Below are positions 1 through 42,928 of a DNA stretch of 64,000 bases, one piece after another. The notes beneath the pieces were generated by a model. It did no database searches. It was given only the letters and a program-made list of their open reading frames with translations, and was not told the DNA's origin. Source of the stretch: Thermofilum uzonense (GTDB taxonomy: Archaea; Thermoproteota; Thermoprotei; Thermofilales; Thermofilaceae); contig NZ_CP009961.1 in assembly GCF_000993805.1 (NCBI RefSeq), positions 552,714 to 616,713 of the forward strand, read 5' to 3'. The position numbers and the translations under genes are program-made. Positions within the stretch are counted from its first letter, which is position 1; each line of letters begins with the position of its first letter.

Positions 1-13
1 GGTAAACCCAAAT

Positions 14-3000: not shown

Positions 3001-6000
3001 TACCCCACGACCACACTGTTCAACACCTTCTCAACCGCTTTCAATTCATTCCTTTCTGATACTTATTCGGTTTTTTCTCCGGGCTTGACGTCCTGGTGTG
3101 ACCTTTCAATTCATTCCTTTCTGATACTCGGGACTTCAACGAACTCAAAGCACTCCTCTCTCCTCTCTTTCAATTCATTCCTTTCTGATACAGACGTTCT
3201 CCGCATTCCTGGAAAGGCTAAGTGTAATTACTTTCAATTCATTCCTTTCTGATACATGTCAAGTGGTTCAACGAGCCACGAGTCCCCAGCATGCCCTTTC
3301 AATTCATTCCTTTCTGATACCCCACTGGCTAGCTGTGGTGAGGGGTTGCTCGAGTTGCTCTTTCAATTCATTCCTTTCTGATACCCTGGGTAGGGGGTTT
3401 TTATGGCGCGTGTCATAGTTGTACTTTCAATTCATTCCTTTCTGATACACTATAGGCTGTACGTGCACCAGATTACCTGAGCTGTCTTTCAATTCATTCC
3501 TTTCTGATACAGGAGGGTGGGGAGGAGGGGGAGGAATCAAGTGATGAGCGCTTTCAATTCATTCCTTTCTGATACAAGCTTCTTAGTTCTCACATCCACA
3601 ACTTGGCTAGCCACTTTCAATTCATTCCTTTCTGATACCGGAGCTATGGGTGAAGATGGCTAGCAGGGATGACGCCCCCTTTCAATTCATTCCTTTCTGA
3701 TACAGCATTTTTATTGCATTTTTTATTTCTTTTTTCATCTCTTTCAATTCATTCCTTTCTGATACAATAAAAAACGCGGGCTGGCCTTTGGGCATGTACT
3801 TTCAATTCATTCCTTTCTGATACATATATACCAGGTGGCTACGAGTGGGGTGAACGCTTTCAATTCATTCCTTTCTGATACAGAATCTGTTCAAGTTCCT
3901 GTCGTGATTTCACAAATCTCAACTTTCAATTCATTCCTTTCTGATACTGAAGACCGAGAGGTGACCAGGAGTGGACTTCAGCTTTCAATTCATTCCTTTC
4001 TGATACGCATAGAGCGTGTTGCCCGCAGAGTCCAGGAACGTGGCCTTTCAATTCATTCCTTTCTGATACGTACACCACAGCTGTGATTACAACCTCTCTT
4101 TCAACTCGTCTTTCAATTCATTCCTTTCTGATACCTTTTTCAGTCACATACACCATTACAGTAATATTGCAGGCTTTCAATTCATTCCTTTCTGATACCC
4201 CGCGTCATACCCGAGAAGACGGTTATGTTTGCGGATCTTTCAATTCATTCCTTTCTGATACCCATACTCGGCCGGCGGCATCCGTTACCTCGCGCTCCTT
4301 TCAATTCATTCCTTTCTGATACGTCCGTGACCAGGCTCCCAGGAAGCCACTCGTCCCCTTTCAATTCATTCCTTTCTGATACGTAAGAATGGTATGAACA
4401 TTACTATTTCGGCCCAGACATCTTTCAATTCATTCCTTTCTGATACATATAGCTAAGGGAAAAAACTATATAGCTAGCAAAATCTCTTTCAATTCATTCC
4501 TTTCTGATACATAATCGAGGCTTTCGCAAACCAGGGTCTTGACAGACTTTCAATTCATTCCTTTCTGATACACCTACTATACCCTCGTATGACAGTTCTG
4601 TCACACCAGTACTTTCAATTCATTCCTTTCTGATACTAGTATGCTACCTTCTTTTGCGACATCAGTAGGACTTTCAATTCATTCCTTTCTGATACCGGAG
4701 TTTTTCCCGCTTGCCAGACTCCCACTCCCTCATCTTTCAATTCATTCCTTTCTGATACACGGGCATTTAAAATCAGGAGTCGGGGGGTCATCCATCCCTT
4801 TCAATTCATTCCTTTCTGATACAAGCCCTAACCGCCGTAATAGCTTTATAATTGCTAACACCTTTCAATTCATTCCTTTCTGATACGTGGTGGTTGTGGT
4901 TGTGTGGTTGATACTTGTATATCATACTTTCAATTCATTCCTTTCTGATACTATAATCAGATGCTTTACGTATTATTACAACTCTTTCACTTTCAATTCA
5001 TTCCTTTCTGATACCTCTCAATTCATCTGTGCTCTTGAATTCAATACCGCAAAATCTTTCAATTCATTCCTTTCTGATACGCCTTTTGTAGGAGCTTGGA
5101 AAAAAGCAGTGTAATGATCTTTCAATTCATTCCTTTCTGATACTCTCGTGTTTTCGACGCGTGCCGGTGTCGGGTTCGGCTTTCAATTCATTCCTTTCTG
5201 ATACATGTAAACAGGGACATTGATGCGACATGCTCAGAGCTCTTTCAATTCATTCCTTTCTGATACCGCCGAAGAGCCTGACTGGGAGGATGTATTTAAC
5301 CACACGCTTTCAATTCATTCCTTTCTGATACCTGTGTTGTGAAACTCGTAAGGAAACCCGTGTCAGTATTCTTTCAATTCATTCCTTTCTGATACACAGG
5401 TGTGCCCAAGGGGATTAGTACCTGTCTAGGGTGTCACCTTTCAATTCATTCCTTTCTGATACTAGGGCTCCACGGGGCTACGTGTTCAAGAGCGCGACAG
5501 GCTTTCAATTCATTCCTTTCTGATACCGCATACTACTCGCTAGCTTCAACGCCTTCTCGGTTACCTTTCAATTCATTCCTTTCTGATACCCGAGGAAGTT
5601 GTCTTCAAAGTCGTCTTCAAGGTAGACTTCTTTCAATTCATTCCTTTCTGATACGGTCGAGTCGGGCCTGGCAGACCGGACACGGCTGATAATAATCTTT
5701 CAATTCATTCCTTTCTGATACTAATTTTATTTTTTGTTCTTGTAGCGTTTCTCTCCTTTACTTTCAATTCATTCCTTTCTGATACAGGCAATACAGGTCG
5801 CGTCGCAAGTGCTGGGACTTGACCTTTCAATTCATTCCTTTCTGATACAAGGACGCCGTGAACGTCCTCCAGAGCCTTCTATCAGGCTTTCAATTCATTC
5901 CTTTCTGATACAGTGTTGAGCCGGGGGGTGACAGAACTGTCACACTTGACTTTCAATTCATTCCTTTCTGATACAGGGAAGCATTTTCACGGTCATCCCC

Positions 6001-7133
6001 TCCGGGCTCGGTGCTTTCAATTCATTCCTTTCTGATACTTATATTGTTGTTAGGGTCATATATATCAAGGTTATATGCATACTTTCAATTCATTCCTTTC
6101 TGATACACCTTAACCTTGTTACTTGACAACTCAAATCACCTTTTCTTTCAATTCATTCCTTTCTGATACGGAGGGAAGGGCTGTCGAGACAATCTACACT
6201 TATGCTACTAGCTTTCAATTCATTCCTTTCTGATACATACGTATTTCCGCCTCGGCTTGGCGAAGTCTGCTTTCCGCAACTTTCAATTCATTCCTTTCTG
6301 ATACCCTTGTAAAAATTATGATCACAGCTGTGGAACACGCTTTCAATTCATTCCTTTCTGATACGTAATACCTCATAATGAGTTTATAATGAAACTTCAT
6401 TATCTTTCAATTCATTCCTTTCTGATACGTGATGTTTGCAGGAGTCCCTGCACTCGTGGTGGCGGCTTTCAATTCATTCCTTTCTGATACAATAAGAACG
6501 TGCACTTCATAGTGCCGTTCCGACGCGAGGGCTTTCAATTCATTCCTTTCTGATACTAGCTAGATGTCAACATTTGAGTGGGATGCTGTCACATCCTTTC
6601 AATTCATTCCTTTCTGATACCCAAATCGGCTTTCCGAGACCTTTGCCAGTCAGAATAGTCTTTCAATTCATTCCTTTCTGATACAGAGACTAAGTGAAGC
6701 TGTAGGCAAAACATTCCAGTGGACTTTCAATTCATTCCTTTCTGATACCCACACAGTGCTGTGTTTAAGATTCCTAGCGTTACTGTACCTTTCAATTCAT
6801 TCCTTTCTGATACCCAATCCAAAAGCCAATATGTTGAACCCCTAATCTCCTGTCTTTCAATTCATTCCTTTCTGATACCTGGAGGGTGAAACACCGGGAA
6901 TCACGACAGACCCGTCTTTCAATTCATTCCTTTCTGATACACACGTGGTGGAGCACGTGGGGTATCATCCAGTTGATGCCCTTTCAATTCATTCCTTTCT
7001 GATACGTAACCCTCCGTCGTACTCCTGAACATAGTCACGAACTCTTTCAATTCATTCCTTTCTGATACCCGACGTCGACAGGATTTTCGTGATGAACGAT
7101 GCTGAATGCTTTCAATTCATTCCTTTCTGATAC
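14..7133 (-). CRISPR. CRISPR array 1, about 113 repeats, truncated at the window start
   Basis: I counted 113 copies of a 25-nt repeat, separated by 112 spacers mostly 32-42 nt long. In the transcribed (minus) sense the repeat begins GTATCAGAAAGG and ends GAATTGAAAG, so crRNAs would carry the archaeal 5' handle ATTGAAAG. That puts the leader at the right end, next to cas1, and the oldest spacers at the left. The first repeat lies only 14 bases inside the window and is perfect, so the array probably continues upstream. Two spacers are unusually long: 1103-1150 (48 nt) and 1176-1220 (45 nt). Repeats are almost invariant throughout. Apparent reading frames inside the array are periodic artefacts of the repeat. 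Confidence 0.99.
4447..4485 (-). repeat. Spacer 71 of array 1, identical to a spacer in array 2
   Basis: Read on the transcribed minus strand, this 39-nt spacer starts AGATTTTGCTAGC and ends CCTTAGCTATAT. It is identical over its full length, and in the same transcribed orientation, to array 2 spacer 20145-20183. It is the 42nd spacer counted from the leader. Confidence 0.95.
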
Positions 7134-7394: not shown

Positions 7395-8417
7395 TTACCA
7401 TTTAGCCTTGAAGGGCATGTAGGGGGCGTTGTCGCGGAGTGCTCGGGCTAGCTTCCTAGCCTGTATGAGGATGAGGTTTGGAATGGGTGGCTTGGTGGTT
7501 CGCGCGTACTCGGCTATGTGTCTCCAAACTTCGCGGGCTGCCTTGTCCTTGGCCTCGCCAGCCTCGTGAGTTAAAGGCTCAAGCCTGGAGGGGTCTGAGC
7601 GGGCGAGCCTGATTAGGGGCCTGTCGACGGCTATTGGCCTGAATTCTTCCATGAGGTCGAGTACTAGGCTCATTCTACCTGGTCTCCGGGCGTGCAGGAA
7701 GCCGAAGTAGGGGTTGAGGCCTACAGCGAAGACTGCTTTCCAGGTCTCGCGTAGTAGGTAGGTGTAGCCGATGTTTAGAGCTATGTTGAAGGGGTCTAGC
7801 TTTACGCCGGGCTTGATGTCCCAACGTTTGAGTCTTTTCTTAAAGCCGACCTGTTTAGGTAGCAGGTTGGCTATGGCCTCCCAGTAGGCTTGTGCAGCGA
7901 CTGCCTCGACTACGCGTGCTTTTTTCCAGGAGTCGGTTCCGGGTAGTTGGGACTCGGCTTTCTCGATAGTCTTTAGCTTGCGCTGTAGCTCTGTTGTGTC
8001 TCTGCCTGATATTGCCTCGCTTTTCAGGTAGCTCTTTATAACTGTCTTCTGGTTGTGTATTTTAGCACCGACGAAGCTTTTTGCGAGCTCTGTCCTCCTC
8101 TTCTCGCTTCGGGCTTGTTTGACCTGCTTGAGCCAGAGCTCTAATGATCCTCCATAAGTGGCGGGTACTAGGCGTGCCGTGGGCTCCCAGCCTGGCATAA
8201 AGTTTATGTCTATGCCGTGCTCGGCCGCCAGCCTTATGGCTCCCCCGGTTATCGTGACGCCCTCAACGGCAAGGACGATTGCCGTGATGTTTGCTACGGG
8301 GTACCTTGCCATGACTTTCCACTGGTTTTCCTCTCTCACACGGATCTCGAACTCTCCCCCTCTGGCGGCAAGCATGGCGCCGTGCTTGTCCAGTAGTATC
8401 ATCCGCCCAAGGCTCAT
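7395..8417 (-). CDS. cas1: CRISPR integrase Cas1 (type I-A)
   Basis: Cas1 is the metal-dependent integrase that, with Cas2, inserts new spacers at the leader end of arrays. The 340-residue protein has the family layout: an N-terminal beta domain followed by the helical catalytic domain. Candidate catalytic residues are E171 (VEAVAAQAYW), H242 (FGFLHARR) and D254/E257 (LDLMEEFRP). I chose the ATG at 8417 because it overlaps the csa1 stop as ATGA and follows a purine-rich GGGGAGG. An ATG 33 nt upstream is possible but lies deeper in csa1. It is the last gene of the minus-strand csa1-cas1 unit and ends beside the array 1 leader. Confidence 0.96.
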   Translation of the reverse strand: MSLGRMILLDKHGAMLAARGGEFEIRVREENQWKVMARYPVANITAIVLAVEGVTITGGAIRLAAEHGIDINFMPGWEPTARLVPATYGGSLELWLKQVKQARSEKRRTELAKSFVGAKIHNQKTVIKSYLKSEAISGRDTTELQRKLKTIEKAESQLPGTDSWKKARVVEAVAAQAYWEAIANLLPKQVGFKKRLKRWDIKPGVKLDPFNIALNIGYTYLLRETWKAVFAVGLNPYFGFLHARRPGRMSLVLDLMEEFRPIAVDRPLIRLARSDPSRLEPLTHEAGEAKDKAAREVWRHIAEYARTTKPPIPNLILIQARKLARALRDNAPYMPFKAKW

Positions 8418-9349
8418 TCGCCTCCCCTGCAATAATGAATGTAGGGGCACTCTGAGGGACAGTTGGAGGATACGCCGGGGTCTTCATCGTAGAGTATGAG
8501 TTCTAGGAGCTTGTCGCGTCTTTCAACGAACTCAGACCTCAGCGCGTCTCCTAGGGCTATAATCCTGGGTCTCACGTAGAGCCTGCGTTTCGGGGGGTCC
8601 ACCTCGACATACATGAGTAATCCACGGTCGATCGGGATCTCGTACTCGCTTTCAAAAGCTAGGGCGTATCCAACCAGGGCGAGCTCGAATTCCCTCCTCG
8701 GGTGCCTGGTTTTTAACTCTAGGATGAGTCCAGGCGGGATGAGTGCGTCTATGCGGAGTGCCCTGCTAAGACCTATCTTCTCGCCGTTTAAAGGGTATTC
8801 CGTCAGGAGGGGGACCGTGGCTGCGACGAGACCGTCTATCTCGAGGAATCTCGACCTGCTTAGTTGCCTCTCGAGCGAGGAGGCGTACGTGGAGAAGCCC
8901 TCGTTTATTATCCTGTCGACGAGCCATGTCCTCTCTTCTTCGGGGACGAGGCTGTGCTTCGCATTGAACTCTGCCTTTAATTTCTCTTTTAAGGTTGAAG
9001 CGGTATTGGCTAGTTCCTGGATTGAGGCGTCCAGCCCGTGGTTGTAAATGCTTCTCTTCACCTCTACGATCGTCCTGGTCCAGGTTTCATGTATTAGCCT
9101 TCCTCGCTGGAGCAGATAGTTATCTCTCGGCTGAACCCTTTTTACGTAGCGGAGGTAGACGTCTCGGCCACGGTCACAGAATCCACCTGTTATGTCTGAT
9201 ACGCCGAGGAGTGGGCCTCCAGGCGGGGCTACAACTCCTTGACCATAAGACCAGCCTCTCAGTTCCTCGCTTACTTCCACAGGGGGCATTCGCCTGAAAT
9301 CCCTGTATAGTGAGTTGATATCCTCTATGATGGGGAATAGCCCCGGCAC
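8414..9349 (-). CDS. csa1: Csa1, Cas4-like adaptation protein of type I-A
   Basis: Csa1 is a Cas4-related protein specific to archaeal I-A systems, thought to work with Cas1/Cas2/Cas4 in processing and orienting new spacers. The 311-residue product has the diagnostic N-terminal motif around GGFCDRGRDVYLR, a central RecB-like section (ALRIDALIPPGLILELKTRH, with the D and ExK positions), and a C-terminal cysteine group (SNCPSECPYIHYC) that together with the early Cys would bind an Fe-S cluster. Translation starts with GTG. It overlaps cas1 by 4 nt, so the two are co-translated, and it is divergent from cas4 across a short AT-rich promoter. Confidence 0.9.
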   Translation of the reverse strand: MPGLFPIIEDINSLYRDFRRMPPVEVSEELRGWSYGQGVVAPPGGPLLGVSDITGGFCDRGRDVYLRYVKRVQPRDNYLLQRGRLIHETWTRTIVEVKRSIYNHGLDASIQELANTASTLKEKLKAEFNAKHSLVPEEERTWLVDRIINEGFSTYASSLERQLSRSRFLEIDGLVAATVPLLTEYPLNGEKIGLSRALRIDALIPPGLILELKTRHPRREFELALVGYALAFESEYEIPIDRGLLMYVEVDPPKRRLYVRPRIIALGDALRSEFVERRDKLLELILYDEDPGVSSNCPSECPYIHYCRGGE

Positions 9350-9406: not shown

Positions 9407-10018
9407 ATGGAGGAGTGGACTTTAACCGTCAACGATCTGAAACACTTCGCATACTGCGAGGCCATAGTATACATAACCCATGGGATAGGGGTCAGGGAGC
9501 GGGAGACCGAGTATATGGCTTACGGCGGAGAGGTTGAAAAGGAGGAGTTCCTCCAACAATTATTAAAAAAATACAGTGTAGCTAGAATACATAGGGGTGT
9601 CACGCTCTCCTCACGTGAACTGCAGCTAACAGGCACTCCTGACGCAGTCCTAGAGACGAGAATGGGCGAGCTCATACCGGTCGAAGTCAAATGGGCTGAG
9701 CCCCCAAGGGCGTCTCGGGTAAAGAAGGATCACCTTGTCCAGCTTATAGCCTACGCCATTCTTATCGAGAAGTCTTGGCCCTCAAGGAAGAGCTCGGTCA
9801 AAAGGGGTTTGGTGTACTACCTTAGGCCTAAGCCCAGGTTCATTGAGGTCTATATCTCTAGCGAGGACAAGAAAAGCGTAATACAGATGGTTAAACGTGC
9901 AGTGAAGGTGGCTCTCGGCGAGGTGGAACCCCTCACCAGGAGAGACTGTTCAAGCTGTAATTACAGGGCCTACTGTCCCTTCGCTTACACGAGGAACTCT
10001 TCCTCCTCCTCGATATAG
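9407..10018 (+). CDS. cas4: Cas4 Fe-S nuclease
   Basis: Cas4 is a RecB-family exonuclease with an Fe-S cluster that trims prespacers and selects the PAM for integration by Cas1-Cas2. Visible motifs are an early Cys (FAYCEA), the nuclease core TGTPDAVLE followed by LIPVEVKW (D and ExK), the QxxxY-type stretch HLVQLIAYA, and the C-terminal cluster CSSCNYRAYCPF. The start was moved to the ATG at 9407 because the upstream 18 codons are AT-rich promoter sequence and the protein proper begins with EEWTLTVNDL. It is the only adaptation gene here on the plus strand, and its last 34 nt overlap the end of cas2 tail to tail. Confidence 0.93.
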   Translation: MEEWTLTVNDLKHFAYCEAIVYITHGIGVRERETEYMAYGGEVEKEEFLQQLLKKYSVARIHRGVTLSSRELQLTGTPDAVLETRMGELIPVEVKWAEPPRASRVKKDHLVQLIAYAILIEKSWPSRKSSVKRGLVYYLRPKPRFIEVYISSEDKKSVIQMVKRAVKVALGEVEPLTRRDCSSCNYRAYCPFAYTRNSSSSSI

Positions 10019-10275
10019 TATCCCTTTGAGAGGACAATCCTGTTCTCGTACGATGCTTGAGAAAACACGTAGATCTGGATGTCATAGCCTTCATTCTCAC
10101 GTGTTATCCTCCTGAGCCCGGCCTCTGTATCTGAGAGGACGGCCGGGTTGTAAGGCGAGACGAAGACACTCTTCTGTACCCGCACATAGCCAGTCTTCTT
10201 GAGGAAGTTTGAGACCTTGAACCTGAGGCGATTGTCCTTTATGTCGTACACGACAAGTATGACTTGATCCGTCAA
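9985..10275 (-). CDS. cas2: CRISPR adaptation protein Cas2
   Basis: Cas2 is the small ferredoxin-fold partner that bridges two Cas1 dimers in the integration complex. The 96-residue protein shows the typical first strand ILVVYDIKDNRLR, with the conserved Asp, and the FLKKTGYVRVQKSVFV helix-strand pair. The start codon is TTG, preceded by a GTGAG purine element. It follows cas3'' by only a few bases, so it may be co-transcribed with the interference genes rather than with cas1. The last 34 nt are antisense to the end of cas4. Confidence 0.95.
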   Translation of the reverse strand: MTDQVILVVYDIKDNRLRFKVSNFLKKTGYVRVQKSVFVSPYNPAVLSDTEAGLRRITRENEGYDIQIYVFSQASYENRIVLSKGYYIEEEEEFLV

Positions 10276-17148: not shown

Positions 17149-20100
17149 GTATCAGAAAAGAATGAATTGAAAGGAGGAATAACTCATGCAGTGCAACCTG
17201 CACCGGTGAGTATCAGAAAAGAATGAATTGAAAGTCCGCGAGCGTTCCCGTTGAGTCGGGGGGTGACAGAGTATCAGAAAAGAATGAATTGAAAGTTACA
17301 CCGCGATAAGTAAGACAACAGACTTTAGCACGTGTATCAGAAAAGAATGAATTGAAAGTTGACTACGCTCGCTTTATCGTATTCAGTCCACATGGTATCA
17401 GAAAAGAATGAATTGAAAGCATTACCCGCTCTATACGCCTTTGGTGCTAGGTATATGGCTTGTATCAGAAAAGAATGAATTGAAAGAAGCGATGAGAGGT
17501 TGCCCGCGCTACGGTAGCCCGCCTGTATCAGAAAAGAATGAATTGAAAGTCACTCTCGATGAGTTTGCAGAGACGGCAAAGTACCACGTATCAGAAAAGA
17601 ATGAATTGAAAGTTCCGGTCTCCAATGTACTCGGGCCGTATGGTTCTTCACGTATCAGAAAAGAATGAATTGAAAGTCCTATACATCATCTACATGGTAT
17701 CGGGAAGACTAATCAGTATCAGAAAAGAATGAATTGAAAGTCAATGGGAATAGTCTGAGGCTGTGAAGCGGGCTCCTCGGTATCAGAAAAGAATGAATTG
17801 AAAGTCAATTTCGCCTCAACCACCATAAACATGTCGTGTATCAGAAAAGAATGAATTGAAAGACGAGTAACAGTCTTGTACGACAGGACGCCCGGGAGCC
17901 CGGTATCAGAAAAGAATGAATTGAAAGCTTCTTTTCGCCACGGGTACTCCCCCCTTTTAATACGTGTATCAGAAAAGAATGAATTGAAAGCTCCCTGCTT
18001 GAGCCGGAACTGCTCGGGCAAGCCCTCGGGTATCAGAAAAGAATGAATTGAAAGTACTCTCCAAGGAGATACCTGAGGCATTAGAGCTGATACGTATCAG
18101 AAAAGAATGAATTGAAAGCATATCAATTCAAATATCAATGACTGTAGGTCAAGTCTGTATCAGAAAAGAATGAATTGAAAGTCGAGCCTGATTGGTTGTT
18201 TTGGGTGTATATCACAGCTGGTATCAGAAAAGAATGAATTGAAAGTAATCCTCTTTTCTAATTCTCAATCCTTTATACTCGGGTGTATCAGAAAAGAATG
18301 AATTGAAAGTTATTTTTTCCTATTGGAGAACACATATAGCTATAGCATATGTATCAGAAAAGAATGAATTGAAAGTGTATAAGTTGTTCTTGCGTCTCAT
18401 CTGTGGTTCTCAATGTATCAGAAAAGAATGAATTGAAAGCTTTCCTTGAAAAACCTGACGAGTTCAGGAAGCGGGTGTATCAGAAAAGAATGAATTGAAA
18501 GTATCGTGTTGCAAGATGAGTAATATTCCGCTACTCGTGTATCAGAAAAGAATGAATTGAAAGTGGCGAAAAAGCCATGGCAAGAAAAAAGCAAAAGGAA
18601 AAGTATCAGAAAAGAATGAATTGAAAGTTTTCACCAAACCTAAAACCGTCAAAGGGGCTTATAAGTATCAGAAAAGAATGAATTGAAAGAACGATGGTAC
18701 GAACTGGGATTACACTGGTGCTAGTGCTAGTATCAGAAAAGAATGAATTGAAAGCTGCTATTTTCTCATGTTGTTCTTTTTCTAACATCTCTTGTATCAG
18801 AAAAGAATGAATTGAAAGAGAAAGATCACGGGGCGCACCGTTGCGCTCCGCTGCCACGTATCAGAAAAGAATGAATTGAAAGAAAATTTTCCATCCATAG
18901 TATGTTGCGTCCTCGCTTTTTGTATCAGAAAAGAATGAATTGAAAGGGTATTGTAGCTTCGCTGCTATGGATTCAATCGCGACGCGTATCAGAAAAGAAT
19001 GAATTGAAAGTTATTTTATCTAGAGCGGAAAACTATACCTCTATACCCCGTATCAGAAAAGAATGAATTGAAAGACACTGGGAGAACTACCTTGAGCGTG
19101 CCCTGAGTGTATCAGAAAAGAATGAATTGAAAGTAAAGATAATTATGTAATTTTCACCGTCATAATCAAAACTGTATCAGAAAAGAATGAATTGAAAGAG
19201 AGCAATGTGCGCCGCCTCATGAGCGAGAACTCCGAGTATCAGAAAAGAATGAATTGAAAGCGGAATTATAGACTTCAATTGCTACTATTGCAAATTGTAT
19301 CAGAAAAGAATGAATTGAAAGCACTTTGTGACAGTCCTGTAGTCTTTTCACCCGTTATTAAGTATCAGAAAAGAATGAATTGAAAGCGGATATAGCATGG
19401 AGCCCCTACATGACCCGCAGGCCCCTGTATCAGAAAAGAATGAATTGAAAGATAATTTGCCCTTTTTACTAGTTTTATTTCCGTCATGGGTATCAGAAAA
19501 GAATGAATTGAAAGACGGGAACGCTTGACAGGTCCTCCTCCCTGGTCCTCCAGTATCAGAAAAGAATGAATTGAAAGTTTGTTGTCATGCTTGTTCATGA
19601 TATTGTATGCAAAATGGGTATCAGAAAAGAATGAATTGAAAGAGGTCTCCGGCAAGTGCGACTGGGAGGAAGGCCTTCACGGTATCAGAAAAGAATGAAT
19701 TGAAAGTGATCCACGTGAGAGTATCGCACCCGACGCCGTAGTTGTATCAGAAAAGAATGAATTGAAAGCAGCGTGAGAGGTAAACGTCATTGTACTCGTC
19801 GAGTATCAGAAAAGAATGAATTGAAAGTTAATGCCATGCACTTTAGCCAAATGCCTTGTTAGGACTGTATCAGAAAAGAATGAATTGAAAGAGGGGTCGC
19901 AGATACATTTTAAGTTACGGAGTTTTTTACGTATCAGAAAAGAATGAATTGAAAGTCGTACTTCGGCGTATACATGGCCCTGTTCGCGGGTATGTATCAG
20001 AAAAGAATGAATTGAAAGACGCCCTTAAAAACCCGTTAAAAAATCTTCAACCCCCTATGTATCAGAAAAGAATGAATTGAAAGAGAGCGACGGCACGGTA

Positions 20101-21798
20101 CAACCCCTGGAGTCAATACGTATCAGAAAAGAATGAATTGAAAGAGATTTTGCTAGCTATATAGTTTTTTCCCTTAGCTATATGTATCAGAAAAGAATGA
20201 ATTGAAAGCGAACAAGCCGGCCACGAGCAGGAAGACGTCTATGGGTATCAGAAAAGAATGAATTGAAAGCGTTGACGTGGATATTGACGCTGACTTGATT
20301 AAGTCACGTATCAGAAAAGAATGAATTGAAAGTTCATCCGTTGTGTACGCTGTATATCTCCAGTATCCAAGTATCAGAAAAGAATGAATTGAAAGAGAAA
20401 TCCCTTGGAGAGGCCTACCCGCACGTCAAAATCGTATCAGAAAAGAATGAATTGAAAGACATTCGCAATAACGTATTCATAGTCGAGGCTGGGACGGGTA
20501 TCAGAAAAGAATGAATTGAAAGAATAGCCACCGAGTGCTGGGCTAGGCGTGGCAGGTTCAAGTATCAGAAAAGAATGAATTGAAAGCACAGAGGAGGCTT
20601 TGATAATACAAAACCGTAATACTTTGTATCAGAAAAGAATGAATTGAAAGCTAATGAGAAACATATGTTATTAGCTATAGCATATTAGGTATCAGAAAAG
20701 AATGAATTGAAAGATAGTAATCTCTCATTCACTTCATGACAAACACGTTTTTGGTATCAGAAAAGAATGAATTGAAAGGCACCTTCTCGTTTAACAGTTC
20801 GACGATTGTCTTACGCGCGTATCAGAAAAGAATGAATTGAAAGTTCCTCCCAGTGGTGATGCCCACTGGCTAGCCGTCGTGAAGTATCAGAAAAGAATGA
20901 ATTGAAAGTCCGGCTCCGGTTCCGCCTCCGGAGCCAGGGAAAGGAGCTGTATCAGAAAAGAATGAATTGAAAGCGATAACGTATTCATATACTGCTTCTT
21001 CTACACTATCAGGTATCAGAAAAGAATGAATTGAAAGCGTTCTTCCCAGCTGTAGGGTGGTTCCGGCTCCCATAATTGTATCAGAAAAGAATGAATTGAA
21101 AGCGAATAACTCGAAGGCATCCTTGTACTCGTACTTCTTGTGTATCAGAAAAGAATGAATTGAAAGATGGTCCGAATTCTAGCTGTGGTATTCCATTTTC
21201 GTTTTGTATCAGAAAAGAATGAATTGAAAGACGTGCGAGCACGCGTGCCACGTAGTCGGTTGACGGCGGTATCAGAAAAGAATGAATTGAAAGCAGTTCC
21301 TCCTCTTCTTCTCCCTCAATTTTGTTACGAATGTATCAGAAAAGAATGAATTGAAAGAGGTAAAAATCGAGAAGAGGGAGGTGAAGAAGTGTATCAGAAA
21401 AGAATGAATTGAAAGTTCACTATGAACTGGTGGGGCGGCCTCGGACGTTGTAGGGTATCAGAAAAGAATGAATTGAAAGGTAGCTCTCAGAAATTAAAAC
21501 AAAGATATCGCGTGGCAGGAATGTATCAGAAAAGAATGAATTGAAAGAGGACTATGTGTTCTTGTTCAGACGTTTTTGCTTGCATGTATCAGAAAAGAAT
21601 GAATTGAAAGGCTCGAGCTGTCTTCTAGCCCATAGGAGGAAGTAGGTATCAGAGAAGAATGAATTGAAAGTTAGCTAGATCAGCTTTGATGTATACTCCT
21701 TTATGCTTTGTATTAGAAAAAATGGCTTGAAAGCGATGTCTACGTGGTGAAGGGGCGGGGGGTACGTCTTTCTGTATTGGAAGTGTATGTGTTGAAAG
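17149..21798 (+). CRISPR. CRISPR array 2, 74 repeats with a degenerate distal end
   Basis: I counted 74 copies of a 25-nt repeat starting GTATCAGAAAAG and ending GAATTGAAAG, with 73 spacers of about 33-42 nt. It differs from array 1's repeat by one base (A instead of G at position 11 in the transcribed sense) and carries the same ATTGAAAG handle. The leader is on the left. The last three repeats decay: 21646-21670 has one change, 21710-21733 is 24 nt with several changes, and 21774-21798 keeps only GTATtgGAA and the GTTGAAAG end. That is the classic trailer-end pattern and confirms the orientation. The array ends 20 nt before the stop of cmr3, so its transcript runs antisense into the cmr operon unless terminated. 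Confidence 0.99.
20145..20183 (+). repeat. Spacer 48 of array 2, identical to a spacer in array 1
   Basis: This 39-nt spacer matches the reverse complement of 4447-4485 at every base, giving the same crRNA from both arrays. It is the 48th spacer from the array 2 leader, close to the depth (42nd) of its twin in array 1. Confidence 0.95.
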
Positions 21799-28597: not shown

Positions 28598-29476
28598 CTA
28601 GGCGTCTACGAGGTAAAGCTTTAAGAGACCCTTGCCTAGCGTTTCGTTGCCTCCAAGCCACAGAACTTTATTTTTCAAGTTGTTGTAGAGCCAGTCGCAG
28701 GGTTCGCTGCATGCTTCGTTTTTAAGGAGTGGTCGACAGATCAAAGCTGTGAAAAGTATGGTCTCCTGGGGGATGTATTCCTCTAGCCATGGTCCTTGAT
28801 CAACGGTTTTATCGTTTTCGTTTAGCCTTACCCTATACTGTATGAACATTCCTCTTCGCACGAGGTCAACTATTAAATCATCCTCAACTAAAACTACACC
28901 TCTACTCTTCACGTGAGCTAGTAGCTCCTCTGGCAGGATTTTCTCGAACAAAGATTTAGGGAGGTTTTCGTCGATTTTTATATCTTTTACGTCTAGTTCG
29001 TTTAATATGGCTAGCTGACCGTCAAGAAGTATATCCTTCCGAGAAGTAGCCGGGGTGCTTATATTCCTCAAATTTTGAAGTAGTTGGGTAGCTTTATCAT
29101 TTTTCCCCAAGGCTTCAAGGTAAGTTGCCAGGTAGCCGATGAGGTGGGAGCTCGTCGCATATGTCCAGATACCCTTGAGACTTCTTGTTGGAAACAGGAG
29201 TAGCCTCACATCTAGGAAACTGGTTAGAGAGGAGTGCTCGTGTGCCTCTGTGGGGGGTGGTCCCAGCGCGAGCTTGAGGCATGCATTTGATTCTTGAGTC
29301 CTCGAAAGCATTGAGCGGACCGCCCCTTTTAAGCTACTGGCCCATATGCAGGGAAAACCAAACTCGTCTCGTTGTACGGGTTGATCGACGAAGTCTAGGG
29401 CTCCTTTTGCATAGCCTGGGTGGGTGGGTGTTACGGCTTTAAAAAAGATGAGGCTCTGTTTAAAAGTGGCCGCCAT
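28598..29476 (-). CDS. cmr4: Cmr4, backbone subunit and target-RNA nuclease
   Basis: Cmr4 forms the helical backbone of the complex, and each copy cuts target RNA at 6-nt intervals. The 292-residue protein has the family N-terminal region with ALDFVDQPVQRDEFGFP. D31 aligns with the catalytic Asp known from Pyrococcus Cmr4. It then has IWASSLKGAVRS and a C-terminal glycine loop LGGNETLGKGL. It is the first gene of the cmr operon; the ATG at 29476 lies about 25-30 nt after a TATA-like box, so translation is probably leaderless. Confidence 0.93.
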   Translation of the reverse strand: MAATFKQSLIFFKAVTPTHPGYAKGALDFVDQPVQRDEFGFPCIWASSLKGAVRSMLSRTQESNACLKLALGPPPTEAHEHSSLTSFLDVRLLLFPTRSLKGIWTYATSSHLIGYLATYLEALGKNDKATQLLQNLRNISTPATSRKDILLDGQLAILNELDVKDIKIDENLPKSLFEKILPEELLAHVKSRGVVLVEDDLIVDLVRRGMFIQYRVRLNENDKTVDQGPWLEEYIPQETILFTALICRPLLKNEACSEPCDWLYNNLKNKVLWLGGNETLGKGLLKLYLVDA

Positions 29477-29515
29477 ACAATTTATTTTTGAGAGCCTGAT
29501 TTATTTAAAAATTTC
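29477..29515 (-). promoter_or_regulatory. Promoter of the cmr operon
   Basis: On the minus strand the sequence TTTTTAAATAAATC (about 29500-29513) is a good archaeal TATA box, about 26 nt before a start close to the cmr4 ATG. No other promoter-like gap exists within the six-gene operon. Confidence 0.6.
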
Positions 29516-30164
29516 TACCAAAAAAGTTTATAGTGTACATTTTCTATTTAATTTGTAATAATTCTAGAGCTAGATTCATGAGATCTGCTCAACATCATGG
29601 TCTTCTCGTATGTCGCGGCTTCGAATCAAGGGTTTCGCCCTACATGGCATTGTCCTGTCCTTGTCGACGGGCATCAAGCGTTCAACTTTCCTAAGGCTTC
29701 CCGTGAATGGTTTCCTGGGTTTTCCCGGTTCGGTCACTTGGAGCTAAGGGTAAAACTTACACCGTTATATATCTGTGTTAAGTTGTGGTAAGCGCGATGA
29801 CTATCAACGATTGACGAACGTGTGTTTCTGGAGTGGGTTGGGCTCGTTGGGGGATTATCGGGGGATTATCGAGTGTACACGGCTCAAAAACCAATCAAGA
29901 CAAGGATACTGTTCTTAGAATATATGCCACCAAGTAATTACATTATTAATGTAGTTATATCAGGTAATTATTGCATTAGTGGGGAGAGAGCTCTCAAAGG
30001 ATGCTTATTGTAAAGAACTTGTTTTTAATCCTCTTACAGTCTGGAGGTAGGAGCAAAGACGAGTGAGTTGCCTCAAATGGATCCTCTCTTCTATGCAATG
30101 CAACCTTTGTGAACATTAGGCTGGCGTGGGGACATTTATGTCGTAAATCTTGTCGTTAATTACT
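29516..30164. other. Gap without a convincing gene
   Basis: About 650 nt separate the cmr promoter from the decayed cas genes. Two short frames overlap on opposite strands: 29597-29791 (plus, 64 codons) and 29576-29737 (minus, GTG start, 53 codons, Lys/Arg-rich, ending DVEQIS). I recognise neither. The part from 29800 to 30110 is AT-rich and contains a small direct repeat (GGGGGATTATC twice near 29848-29870). Confidence 0.4.
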
Positions 30165-30467
30165 CTACCGATCGAGGCCTTTACTACTAGTCTTCCTGTG
30201 CGGTCTGGCAGGCTCAAGGCTTACGTGGCCGAAGCCTATGCTCCTGGACTTTCCTATCCCGAAGCGTAGCGCGAACGCGAGCAGCTTCTTGAACTCCTGT
30301 GCGAGCGGGGAATCAGTGTCAAGAAGCTCGTACATCACGTAGCCCGTGAAGCCCCGCTCCGTCACGCTCCTCCCCTCGTTGACCGTGTACAGAATGGTCT
30401 CAGGCCTTACCCTGTAGTCGAGCTCCGCCAGAGCCCTGTACGCCCACTTGAAACCTGAGGTGGAATA
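30165..30467 (-). pseudogene. C-terminal fragment of Cas6
   Basis: The open stretch encodes about 100 residues with the features of a Cas6 C-terminus: NEGRSVTERGFTGYVMYEL, then LLAFALRFGIGKSRSIGFG followed by HV, which is the glycine-rich loop of the repeat endonuclease. No start is available: the frame is closed by TAA immediately upstream, where the sequence turns into a cas1 remnant on the other strand. About 60% of a normal Cas6, including the N-terminal half, is missing. Cas6 would process repeats for both the I-A and III-B systems here, but this copy cannot. Confidence 0.8.
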
Positions 30468-31138
30468 TTATTCACGCGATAATAGAGTCCAAGATCCGCA
30501 ACCAGGCCGGGCTGCTGAGATACTATTCTAAGTCCCTCGAGCGCATCGATTTAAAGAACCTGGCAAACGAGATACTCTCGACGCTAGAGGAGCTCCCGGA
30601 GGTCCTGGGAAACCCGCAAGCTGTGCTGAATCTCGAGGCAAGGGTGGCACAGATCTACTGGGGCGGTGTTGCAGAGCTCCTGCCACGGGAAATCGTTTTC
30701 GACGGGCGTGACCATGAGTCATTGGATCCCTTTAACATCTCCTTGAACTATAGCTACGCGCTTCTATATTCGAGGTGTTGGCGTGTCCTCGTGTTGGCAG
30801 GCCTGGATCCCTACGCCGGCTTTCTTCACACCGACAGGAGTGGTAAGGAGAGCCTTGTATATGACTTTAGCGAGATGTTCAAGCCACTTGCTGTCGACAA
30901 GCTGCTTATCTCGATGTTCAGGGAGGGTTGGAGGCCTAGAATCGAAAACGGGCTGATCTCTCGGGACTCGAGAGCCGACCTTATAGCACGCTTTTCTGAG
31001 TGGATGGGGAAGAACGCGAGGCCGACAACGGGCGAGGCTTGCACTCTTGAACAGGCAATGAAGAGGTGGGCTTTCAGGCTTGCAGGCTATCTCAGAGGGG
31101 AGTCCAAATCCTTCACGGGGTTCGTAGAGACATGGTGA
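30452..31138 (+). pseudogene. 5'-truncated second cas1
   Basis: The frame encodes 228 residues of the Cas1 catalytic domain: KIRNQAGLLRYY, then LEARVAQIYWGGVAELLP (with the catalytic Glu), DPFNISLNYSYALLYSR, and GFLHTDRSGKESLVYDFSEM (with His and Asp). It matches the second half of the intact cas1 in the window but is clearly a different paralogue. The N-terminal beta domain is absent; the frame opens at the junction with the cas6 fragment. The first usable start (GTG 30623) would leave only 171 residues. The catalytic residues survive, so the truncation looks recent. Confidence 0.85.
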
Positions 31139-31293
31139 GAGTAGTAGTGGTCTATGATATAAGCGAGGACGCGAAGCGCCTCAGGCTGGCAGACAAGCTG
31201 AAGGGCCTGGGGCTCTCCTCACTCCCGCGCGCAGCGCCACGGCCTGGCCGAGCGCCGGCAAGCCGCTTTAGCTGCGCACCAAGTACTACGTAA
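31132..31293 (+). pseudogene. Frameshifted cas2 remnant
   Basis: Starting at the ATG overlapping the cas1 remnant's stop, the frame gives MVRVVVVYDISEDAKRLRL and then ADKLKGLGLS, a typical Cas2 N-terminus with the conserved Asp. It then loses Cas2 character after about residue 33. In a neighbouring frame the next bases read RAQRHGLAERRQAAL, resembling the missing Cas2 QRS region, so at least one frameshift has occurred in GC-rich sequence. With the cas6 and cas1 fragments it makes a dead second adaptation module. Confidence 0.75.
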
Positions 31294-31414
31294 GTGGCCT
31301 CAGCTCCGGCCGGGAGCCCCAGCTAGCGTGGGTGGCGCTAGCTGACGGGGTTCTCGAGGGGGCTTGGTGGAGCCCGCGGAGTCGCACGCTCGCCAGAAGG
31401 GCCCCCTTCATCCG

Positions 31415-31454
31415 ACAAACTTAAATATTCTGATAGAAATGCTTGTCTGAGAGT
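31415..31454 (+). promoter_or_regulatory. Promoter of vapBC copy 1
   Basis: The TATA-like TTAAATAT (31419-31426) lies about 30 nt before the ATG at 31455, fitting a leaderless transcript. The same promoter sequence, slightly diverged, precedes the second vapB copy at 42595. Confidence 0.55.
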
Positions 31455-31703
31455 ATGGGCGAGGCGGAGGTTGTCAGGGTGGGGAGGAGGTACACGGTGG
31501 TGGTGCCGAAGCGGTTGAGGGAGAAGCTGGGGCTGAGGGAGGGGGACCTGCTCAGAATCCGTATAGAGAATGGAAAGCTTATACTCGAGCGCGTCGCCGA
31601 CCCCTTCAGGGTTCTGGAGGGAGTCATCGGCGAGCCGTACAGCGAGGAGAGGGAGGAGGGGGAGGCTGAGAGGTGGCTGCTCAGTGCCCATCGCCGACAC
31701 TGA
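31455..31703 (+). CDS. AbrB-type antitoxin VapB (copy 1)
   Basis: Small swapped-hairpin (AbrB/MazE-like) DNA-binding antitoxin that should neutralise the adjacent PIN toxin and repress its own promoter. The 82-residue product has the typical core EVVRVGRRYTVVVPKRLRE then KLGLREGDLLRIRIENG, followed by an acidic C-terminal tail that would wrap the toxin. ATG 31455 is preferred over the upstream in-frame TTG because of promoter spacing. Its last 20 nt overlap vapC. A second copy, more than 80% identical at the protein level by eye, lies at 42595-42843. Confidence 0.85.
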   Translation: MGEAEVVRVGRRYTVVVPKRLREKLGLREGDLLRIRIENGKLILERVADPFRVLEGVIGEPYSEEREEGEAERWLLSAHRRH

Positions 31704-32085
31704 GGTCCTCTTCGCGATGAACCCGAGGGACGACAGGCACGCTAAGGCGCTGAGAGCCCTCAGGGTCAAGGGGCTCAGGGTGCCTGACACCGCCCTCCTG
31801 GAGTTCCAGGTGGTGCTGAGGGCCCGCGGCAGGAGGCCGGAGGAGGTCGCCGCTGCGCTTGAAGCGCTCGGGAGCATCCTGGCGGCGCACCGCGTCCCGG
31901 AGCTGCGCACCCTCGGCCTAGGGTTGCTCGTGAGGCAGGCAGAGATCGAGAGGTCGTACGGCCTGAGCTACTTCGACAGCCTAATAGCGGCGTCGGCTCT
32001 AGCTTACGACGGGGTCGTGATCTCCGACGACGCAGCGTTCGACAAAGTGCCAGGCTTGAGGAGGATCCCGCTTCGCGACCTGTAG
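31684..32085 (+). CDS. PIN-domain toxin VapC
   Basis: PIN-domain ribonuclease of a VapBC toxin-antitoxin pair, 133 residues from the GTG that overlaps the antitoxin gene. Acidic active-site positions are visible in order: IADTEVLF (Asp), LLEFQVV (Glu), YFDSLIAAS (Asp) and ISDDAAF (Asp). The pair is very rich in G and C compared with the flanks and lies between broken cas genes and a broken ATPase, as expected for a mobile addiction module. Confidence 0.85.
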   Translation: MPIADTEVLFAMNPRDDRHAKALRALRVKGLRVPDTALLEFQVVLRARGRRPEEVAAALEALGSILAAHRVPELRTLGLGLLVRQAEIERSYGLSYFDSLIAASALAYDGVVISDDAAFDKVPGLRRIPLRDL

Positions 32086-32176
32086 CGGGCCAGGGGCACT
32101 CCGCAAGAGCCTCCTGCCTCGGCTAGTCGAGGAAGCTGCCTCCGGCCAGGCGCCGGTGTTTAAGGTACTTATTTTT

Positions 32177-32263
32177 ATGATGGAAACGGTCTCAGTCCTG
32201 TTGGGGCCCGGTGCTGTCTGCAAGACGACTGTCGCGACCCTGCTCGCGTACTCGCTGACTTGA
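32177..32263 (+). pseudogene. N-terminal remnant of a P-loop ATPase
   Basis: A 28-codon frame preceded by an AT-rich stretch reads METVSVLLGPGAVCKTT then VATLLAYSLT and stops. This is the beginning of a ParA/ArsA-like P-loop ATPase: strand, Walker A and first helix. The Walker A has Cys where the invariant Gly of GKT(T/S) should be (AVCKTT). Nothing homologous follows the stop, so only the 5' end remains. Confidence 0.55.
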
Positions 32264-32486
32264 ATAATACTCTTCTTAGAGTCAGGCTGAGGATTAGACT
32301 AAGTCATTTTCAGCCCCCATCACATGGAGACTTAGTCTTGAGAAATATTTATTAATATTGTAAGTGAGGCGATGAAATTTTCAAAAAAATTTTAAGGAAT
32401 CTTATTGATTTTGCATGGGGGTTTGCCTTCGTCATTGTTTCGAAAAATTGAAATTTATTCCGTGTTGGTATAATTAATTTAGTAGG

Positions 32487-33377
32487 GTGAGCTGGCTGGC
32501 GATGGGCCAGACCAGTTCGCGGTGGAGGAACTGGCTTCCTAGTTCTATGGCCGCGAAGGAGTATGGGTTGACTTTTGACCAGATCGAGTACGGCATTTTT
32601 CTGGGGCTTATTGAATTTAGAAATATGGGTAATATGGGGAAGCTTTTGAACAGGGAGGATGTTGAGAAGAATCTGGGTTTCCTCAAGAGTTTACCGGGGA
32701 GGATATGGTTTTACAAGACGGAGGTTATGAGGAAGTACCGGTTAACCAGGAATCAAATCGATATGGCTTTAGAGGCTGGTTTGGTGAGGTACAAAGTCGT
32801 TAAGAATCCCCATTATAAGAGGCTGCCTGCGGTGAGGCTCGTTATTATGGATGTAGAGGAGAACCTGGAGAGGATAAGGGCTTTTCCTAAGTATACTGAG
32901 AGAGAGGTTGAGAGGAGGAAGGTTTATGCTGAGCGTTCTAGGCTGAGGGATGAGTTGGAGTTTTACTGTCCTAGGTGTAAGAGGTCGATAAGGCCTCCAA
33001 GGGGCTCGAGGAGCTTCGAGGATGCATGGAGTGGTTCATTGACGCGTGAGGAAGCTCTTGAAAAACTCATCATAGCACACTATAGGCATTTGCATACGGA
33101 TTATGACTCTGCCAGGAACGACGTGGATCGGTGGGTTAAGCCTGAGGAGGTTAAGAGGCTTACAGGTGTTTACAAGAGTTTTAAGGAGTTCCTGGCCTTT
33201 TATATCGGTTGGAAGGAGGAGATGGATCGGGAAGAGAGGGAGTATTATATCGCGATTATAAGACAATTGAGGGGAATCGCTACGGAGCGTGCTAAAAGGC
33301 ATTTTAGCTATGTTGCTAGAAAACTGGCAGAGGAGGATGGGCTCCTAAAGCCGAGAGAAGAGAATAAATCTGCCTAG
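32487..33377 (+). CDS. Conserved archaeal protein, DUF2293-like C-terminus
   Basis: The 296-residue protein is basic and helical. Two zones stand out: a Cys pair YCPRCKRSIRPPRGS (about 162-176) that could bind metal, and LIIAHYRHLHTDYDSARND (about 193-211), which resembles the His-rich TDYD motif of DUF2293 proteins. No catalytic role is known to me. It is a single gene between AT-rich gaps. The GTG at 32487 follows GTAGG; the ATG at 32502 is equally well spaced from the TATA-like TATAATTAATTT at 32470. Confidence 0.65.
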   Translation: MSWLAMGQTSSRWRNWLPSSMAAKEYGLTFDQIEYGIFLGLIEFRNMGNMGKLLNREDVEKNLGFLKSLPGRIWFYKTEVMRKYRLTRNQIDMALEAGLVRYKVVKNPHYKRLPAVRLVIMDVEENLERIRAFPKYTEREVERRKVYAERSRLRDELEFYCPRCKRSIRPPRGSRSFEDAWSGSLTREEALEKLIIAHYRHLHTDYDSARNDVDRWVKPEEVKRLTGVYKSFKEFLAFYIGWKEEMDREEREYYIAIIRQLRGIATERAKRHFSYVARKLAEEDGLLKPREENKSA

Positions 33378-33878
33378 GTGGCTTGTCTTCCCGAATCTCT
33401 CAGATATACTCGAGGTTCGATATAATGTCTACGAATCATAAATGTTACCAGCCTGATTCACTGCGAGGAATAGTCTTTGCATAGAGACATCAGGATATTG
33501 GTAATGTTGCTGGCTAGAGGAGGCTCAGGCAGTCATCGAGTTAGGGGGCTTGGAGATGAGTCGCTGGGGAAATGAAATGGAATATAATGTATATTTTATG
33601 TTAAAATTTTTCTTTAAAACGCCGAGAACGGGAAAAGAGGTCCATGTTATAACGTGTGGAATCTCTTTGCCCTGTAATTTTTTCGATGCTGCAGCTACTC
33701 TGCAAATTATAGAGTAAGACTTGCATGTTCCGTGCTTTTACGGGCGCGGATTTGGGGCTTAATAGTTTTTCCTGTTTCGAGCATTCTGGCTAGAAGGTCT
33801 AGAGTGATGAGTAGTTTTTGGGTTTAAGATTAATTTGATAGATGTGGGGGAAGGCTTGGAAGGATCAAAGGGTTGGAG
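33378..33878. other. Gap of 500 nt without a gene
   Basis: I see no coding frame, tRNA or array. The sequence is AT-rich and contains a polypyrimidine-poor run near 33590-33620, but no clear terminator hairpin. It separates the convergently arranged DUF2293-like gene and the large secreted protein. Confidence 0.4.
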
Positions 33879-42310: not shown

Positions 42311-42594
42311 CCCAAATGCCACCAACTCTTATGTTTATAAATACACATACACACTTATAAGTTTAGTCATGGCCCCTACAGAAAACAACAGGTAATTAAA
42401 GTGTTTTAGGGCTTTGCAAGGGAAAGCCTCTCTGCGCGATTTCCTATTAAATTTTTAGGATATAATTTCGTGTACCCCGAGAGGATAATTGACTCTGTCG
42501 TATTAGCGAGGGTACGCATTAATGTTTTCCTTAACGATTCGCTCGGTTTTCAGACGTATTTTAAATATCTGAGTGGAAATATTTGTCTGATGGT

Positions 42595-42843
42595 ATGAGA
42601 GGGGCAGAGGTTGTACGGGTAGGGAGAAGATACACGGTGGTGGTGCCGAAGAGGTTGAGGGAGAAGTTGGGGTTGAAGGAGGGGGACCTGCTCAGAATCC
42701 GTATAGAGAATGGAAAGCTTATACTCGAGCGCGTAGCTGATCCCTTCAGAGTTCTAGAGGCTGTGATAGGCGAGCCCTACAGCGAGGAAAAGGAGGAAAA
42801 GAAGGCTGAGAGGTGGCTGCTGGATGCCACTTCTGGACACTGA
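42595..42843 (+). CDS. AbrB-type antitoxin VapB (copy 2, orphaned)
   Basis: A near-copy of the antitoxin at 31455: VVRVGRRYTVVVPKRLREKL is identical, and long nucleotide blocks are identical too (for example around 42685-42740). Differences concentrate in the acidic tail. The TATA-like TTTAAATATCT upstream corresponds to that of copy 1. Its toxin partner is truncated, so this copy may be an orphan that could still neutralise or regulate the intact pair 11 kb away. Confidence 0.82.
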   Translation: MRGAEVVRVGRRYTVVVPKRLREKLGLKEGDLLRIRIENGKLILERVADPFRVLEAVIGEPYSEEKEEKKAERWLLDATSGH

Positions 42844-42928
42844 GGTCCCATTTGCGATGAACCCGAGGGACGGCAGACAAGCTAAGGCGTTAAAAGTTGA
42901 ATATAGTTATAAACTTATTATGCCATGA
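42824..42928 (+). pseudogene. Truncated vapC after antitoxin copy 2
   Basis: The frame reads MPLLDTEVPFAMNPRDGRQ then AKAL, matching the first 20-odd residues of VapC at 31684. It then diverges into an AT-rich stretch (KVEYSYKLIMP) and stops after 34 residues. The first catalytic Asp remains but the other three acidic positions are lost, so the toxin is dead. The break point, near 42890, is also a sharp drop in GC. Confidence 0.75.

Follow-up and report, generated by a model that had tools for sequence, protein, structure and literature searches.

A hot-spring archaeon, Thermofilum uzonense, carries in its chromosome a relic, very probably that of a once complete second CRISPR-Cas locus of type I-A, gutted by at least two internal deletions. 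The relic lies in the window (the whole stretch of 64,000 nucleotides that was analysed) and is reduced to scraps of cas6, cas1, cas2 and cas3'', every one of which matches the crenarchaeal type I-A loci made up of csa1-cas1-cas2-cas4, csa5-cas7-cas5-cas8a-cas3'-cas3'' and Cas6. A first-pass annotation, made from the sequence alone, had recognised a decayed second CRISPR module in the cas6, cas1 and cas2 pieces, and the cas3'' tail described here extends that reading to a whole I-A locus. The event is an ordinary, known kind of gene loss and not a new system.

Genomic setting and resident CRISPR-Cas systems

The chromosome of T. uzonense 1807-2 is complete, with 1,611,988 bp (CP009961; PMC4673724), and 192 pseudogenes were counted in the published genome (PMC4673724). 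On one side of the relic stands Cmr4, encoded in an intact III-B operon, and on the other a VapBC pair (Table 1). The same window holds, about 20 kb away, a resident type I-A and III-B (Cmr) island of the same subtype as the relic, whose cas1 and cas2 are intact, as the first-pass annotation had stated, together with csa1 and cas4.

Two large arrays lie around the resident I-A genes (1-7133 and 17149-21670, with 113 and 72 repeats), and their repeats are one base apart and in opposite orientation. The only intact Cas6 that PF10040 finds in the genome belongs to another subfamily (L073:9342-10202, which is 417341-418201 of the genome) and is encoded about 165 kb from the relic (417,389 against 582,881 in genome coordinates), with no array or other cas gene nearby; this lone protein may supply both arrays.

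Table 1. Features of the relic and its surroundings (positions in the window)
Feature	Position	Strand	Evidence or remark
Resident cas1, intact	7395-8450		
Resident cas2, intact	9985-10275		
Cmr4 gene of the intact III-B operon	28598-29476		
cas6 3' end, C-terminal ~96 codons (C-terminal third)	30165-30452	minus	Pfam PF10040
Junction 1, cas6 interior to cas1 interior	30453-30454		0-2 bp between homologies; aligned on either side at protein and DNA level
cas1 3' part, 227 codons from L-R-W (C-terminal two-thirds)	30455-31138	plus	Pfam PF01867
cas2 5' end, ~28 codons, overlapping the cas1 stop	31132-31218	plus	69% over 35 aa to G014 Cas2; TIGR01573 weak
Junction 2, cas2 to cas3''	31215-31218		CTCC occurs both in G014 cas2 and in G015 cas3''
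Type I-A cas3'' tail, last 18 codons and stop	31215-31271	plus	LLTPARSATAWPSAGKPL and stop; aligns in frame with the 3' end of cas3'' (intact) on G015:C64
Stretch shared with G015	31215-32970	plus	98% identical over 1757 bp to G015:C64:3457-5213, reaching that contig's end
vapB-like antitoxin (AbrB/MazE fold), intact	31443-31703	plus	PF04014; identical protein on G015:C64
vapC toxin, PIN domain, intact	31684-32085	plus	PF01850; 98% to G015:C64; starts at a GTG within the ORF listed at 31570
ORF296, 296 aa	32487-33377	plus	Same neighbour on G015:C64

The cas6 and cas1 pieces and the first junction

On the left of the relic, the last ~96 residues of Cas6 match the CRISPR_Cas6 family (PF10040; 30165-30455, minus strand, E 7e-9, profile positions 47-89 of 89) and are 57-69% identical to the Cas6 proteins of six Thermofilaceae genomes. 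This piece retains the glycine-rich loop GIGKSRSIGFGH and 31 of 34 invariant residues, near the range of intact Cas6, and it lacks about 190 N-terminal residues, and with them the N-terminal half of a full-length RAMP protein. Known Cas6 enzymes carry catalytic residues in that half. The Cas1 piece that faces it matches Cas_Cas1 (PF01867; 30455-31138, plus strand, E 6.5e-44, profile positions 97-254 of 283), is 60% identical to Cas1 of contig C96 of genome G014, and retains all of the catalytic residues E61, H125, D137 and E140 (fragment numbering); its N-terminal ~100 residues are gone, and there is no start codon before 30623.

Alignments with Cas6 relatives extend as far as the Phe codon at 30450-30452, and those with Cas1 relatives begin at the Leu codon at 30455-30457, homology being lost cleanly in both frames at 30452/30455. 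The abutting of two cut genes, a Cas6 C-terminus on one strand and a Cas1 piece with Cas2 on the other, is thus borne out by the Pfam matches and by the points where homology ends. The missing halves were found nowhere else: the full Cas6 of G004 used as a query against the complete genome returned only the fragment, the N-terminal part of G014 Cas1 returned only the resident Cas1, and the flanking stretch holds no trace of either. Because a balanced inversion would have kept these halves, their absence from the genome, at the sensitivity used, leaves that candidate without support.

The earlier proposal had been a deletion, or an inversion plus a deletion, and a deletion is the best reading of this junction. 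An inversion with breakpoints inside both genes would also join their interiors head-to-head, and cas6 and cas1 are indeed co-directional in the relatives G003, L063 and L064; however, the other halves would have to have been lost later, which takes more steps than a single deletion, and these reciprocal halves turned up neither in the genome nor in the flanking stretch, so that we consider this course unlikely. The comparison with relatives that the first-pass annotation had suggested did not yield the expected arrangement: in none of the 81 genomes of the class were cas6 and cas1 found adjoining each other and oriented as they would have to be. A Cas6-Cas1 fusion, at which a 566-codon open frame around the G014 cas1 had hinted, was dropped: that frame is a mere upstream open extension, with the cas1 start inside it and csa1 as the gene upstream.

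The cas2 stub, the cas3'' tail and the second junction

The cas2 gene had been described as truncated, and it is indeed cut after about 28 codons, Cas2 being recognisable for its first ~28-34 residues only; what had been missed is the second junction, through which cas2 passes into cas3''. The tail of cas3'' reads in a different frame from cas2 and ends in LLTPARSATAWPSAGKPL and a stop in the window, compared with LLTAARSGTAWLSAGKPL and a stop in G015, a genome from another genus of the same family (Thermofilaceae). A frameshift in cas2 was rejected, as the bases past codon 28 belong to cas3'' and not to a shifted cas2. Identity to G015 starts exactly at this junction, inside the intact cas3'' of contig C64, and a deletion is here nearly demonstrated. 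The CTCC found at the joint is possibly a 4-bp microhomology, read on the cas2 side from a distant relative, since the cas1-cas2 sister (G014) is just 60-69% identical.

As Cas6 is left without its N-terminal half, Cas1 without its N-terminal domain and start, and Cas2 and Cas3'' as stubs, the relic is expected to encode no working CRISPR protein. The first ~28 codons of cas2 and a Cas1 lacking both its N-terminal ~100 residues and a start codon do not make up a functional adaptation module.

The stretch shared with another genus

On G015:C64 the order is cas8a-cas3'-cas3''-vapBC-ORF296, with an intact cas3'' and with cas8a2/csa4 as the effector gene upstream, so that a cas3'' end followed by vapBC is seen independently in both genomes. 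The contig begins inside cas8a, and any link to cas1-cas2 would lie beyond the contig edge. The toxin-antitoxin pair that had been noticed behind the relic, a MazE/AbrB-type antitoxin and a PIN toxin, corresponds to a predicted VapBC pair, the antitoxin gene standing directly before the PIN-domain gene and overlapping it (PF04014, PF01850). ORF296 has no Pfam or NCBIfam match. A broken duplicate of VapBC, with a vapB copy 85% identical and only the start of vapC, is found 11 kb from the intact pair, at 42561-42889.

The DNA of the shared stretch differs from G015 by 2% overall and by 5% in the first 200 bp, whereas the other matches to G015 between 26 and 44 kb of the window reach only 65-71% identity. 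The G+C content is 56% in the shared part against 67% in the cas part of C64 and 67-73% in the two further G015 contigs examined. From these two contrasts, the stretch (cas3'' tail, vapBC and ORF296) is most plausibly explained by recent exchange between the genera, in either direction, even though C64 could possibly be a mis-binned or chimeric contig.

Such recent exchange, which the 98% match to G015 implies, also lends something to the idea that the pieces arrived already broken, as passenger DNA together with the vapBC-ORF296 stretch, and the GC3 of the cas6 and cas1 pieces (0.77 and 0.67) is above that of the resident cas3' (0.54). Nevertheless, the only other copy found of the stretch, that of G015, has an intact cas3'', so that at least the second deletion is younger than the split between the two copies; we regard an import in pieces as rather improbable, if the least improbable of the alternatives. 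The same G015 contig bears on the quality of the assembly. Being a hybrid short-read assembly that needed Sanger correction in three regions (PMC4673724), the published genome could in principle have unrelated reads joined at this place. It was, however, closed to one gapless circle with read mapping as a check (PMC4673724), the right-hand pieces are contiguous in the independent G015, and all the pieces are of the sort expected in a single type of locus, unlike random joins, which makes an artefact extremely unlikely.

Lineage and age of the loss

The Cas1 piece had been assigned to a different lineage from the resident cas1, and a phylogeny agrees: the piece groups with G014 (support 99/93), whereas the resident Cas1 falls in a separate group (100/99). 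Likewise, identity between the resident cas3' and the cas3' of G015:C64, the contig that holds the relative of the relic's cas3'', is only ~29%. The survival of the Cas1 motifs had been taken as a sign of a recent event, and the counts point the same way. The piece retains all 36 residues that do not vary among 13 intact Cas1 proteins, and a relative-rate count gives it 21 unique changes against 19 in its intact sister; because it has lost no invariant residue and evolved no faster than that sister, the loss of the second locus is recent. The second deletion, for its part, is younger than the split from the G015 copy, since cas3'' is intact there.

The preservation of the Cas1 piece could instead mean that it is a retained and expressed mini-protein with a new role, starting at the GTG at 30623 (171 aa) or at a non-standard start upstream. 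Its 228-codon open frame, with the catalytic and the 36 invariant residues all in place, would suit such a protein. Yet the N-terminal domain is gone and the frame begins at the gene-gene junction, the truncated form occurs in no second genome among the 81 of the class, and divergence since the G015 split is a few per cent. With so little time elapsed, chance would leave the frame open fairly often, and the state of the piece need not imply selection; we give the mini-protein hardly any credence.

The ancestral locus and the course of its loss

The decay of a once complete locus is best seen against its relatives. The relic's cas1 and cas2 pieces are closest to csa1-cas1-cas2-cas4 modules, whose csa1 and cas4 are absent here, and the same-clade Cas1 proteins of G014, Desulfurococcaceae AG1 and Metallosphaera yellowstonensis sit in such modules. 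In M. yellowstonensis (L060) the module is followed by cas7-cas5-cas3' on one strand, and in G055 and G059 csa1-cas1-cas2 precedes an array and cas7-cas5/cas3, with the I-A effector genes on the same strand. G014 and G004 have a related cas6 with an array on its 5' side (directly so in G014), and in G014 csa3-csa1-cas1-cas2-cas4 stands on a contig separate from that of cas6 and the array. Intact effector genes are found in G015:C64 and G016, and an intact adaptation module in G014:C96; all that the relic keeps of the effector genes is the final 18 codons of cas3'', whose intact G015 copy adjoins cas8a2/csa4 and cas3'. These adaptation modules, the effector order and the cas6-array order make a complete I-A locus the simplest ancestor, and because the second junction joins cas2 to cas3'', the lost unit most likely was the whole locus, including its effector operon. 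The left-hand order is pieced together from several genomes, as no single one of the 81 shows it.

The original order would have been cas6 on the minus strand, probably an array and csa3, and then, on the plus strand, csa1-cas1-cas2-cas4 followed by csa5-cas7-cas5-cas8a-cas3'-cas3''-vapBC-ORF296. One deletion would have run from the interior of cas6 to that of cas1, and another from about codon 28 of cas2 to about codon 298 of cas3'', removing roughly 6-7 kb as judged from gene sizes in relatives; the latter was probably sealed by end-joining at the CTCC microhomology. The vapBC pair behind cas3'' would have outlasted both.

What cut the locus could conceivably have been the resident I-A/Cmr systems or the relic's own Cas3, through self-targeting or because two I-A systems competed, a proposal we hold to be very unlikely, as we do its extension that vapBC was spared because losing it harms the cell. 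If true, the relic would document, in nature, how one CRISPR system eliminated another as far as its addiction module. None of the present spacers backs this, though spacers since lost might have done so: the 183 spacers of the two arrays match 29477-33400 over 15 nt at best, and the other loci examined over 23 nt at best (91%), that is, not at all. An origin in a mobile element was also rejected, as no relatives turned up in viral contigs and identity to the best-ranked plasmid Cas1 reaches only 37%.

Comparison with known systems

The relic offers a readable and recent example of the death of an archaeal CRISPR locus, at a joint of 0-2 bp and a probable 4-bp microhomology; this death seems to have come after two genera had acquired a common stretch, 98% identical between them. 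A review on Sulfolobales describes how the CRISPR loci of archaea undergo large deletions and exchange modules, and vapBC pairs among cas genes were proposed there to help maintain the loci in the population (PMC4390879). The present case bears on that proposal, as here the vapBC pair survived and its locus did not. Both the relic and the Sulfolobales loci show loss or exchange of segments or adaptation modules, with vapBC interspersed with cas genes; unlike the Sulfolobales cases (PMC4390879), the relic displays two readable gene-to-gene junctions of a whole locus, of which only vapBC is intact.
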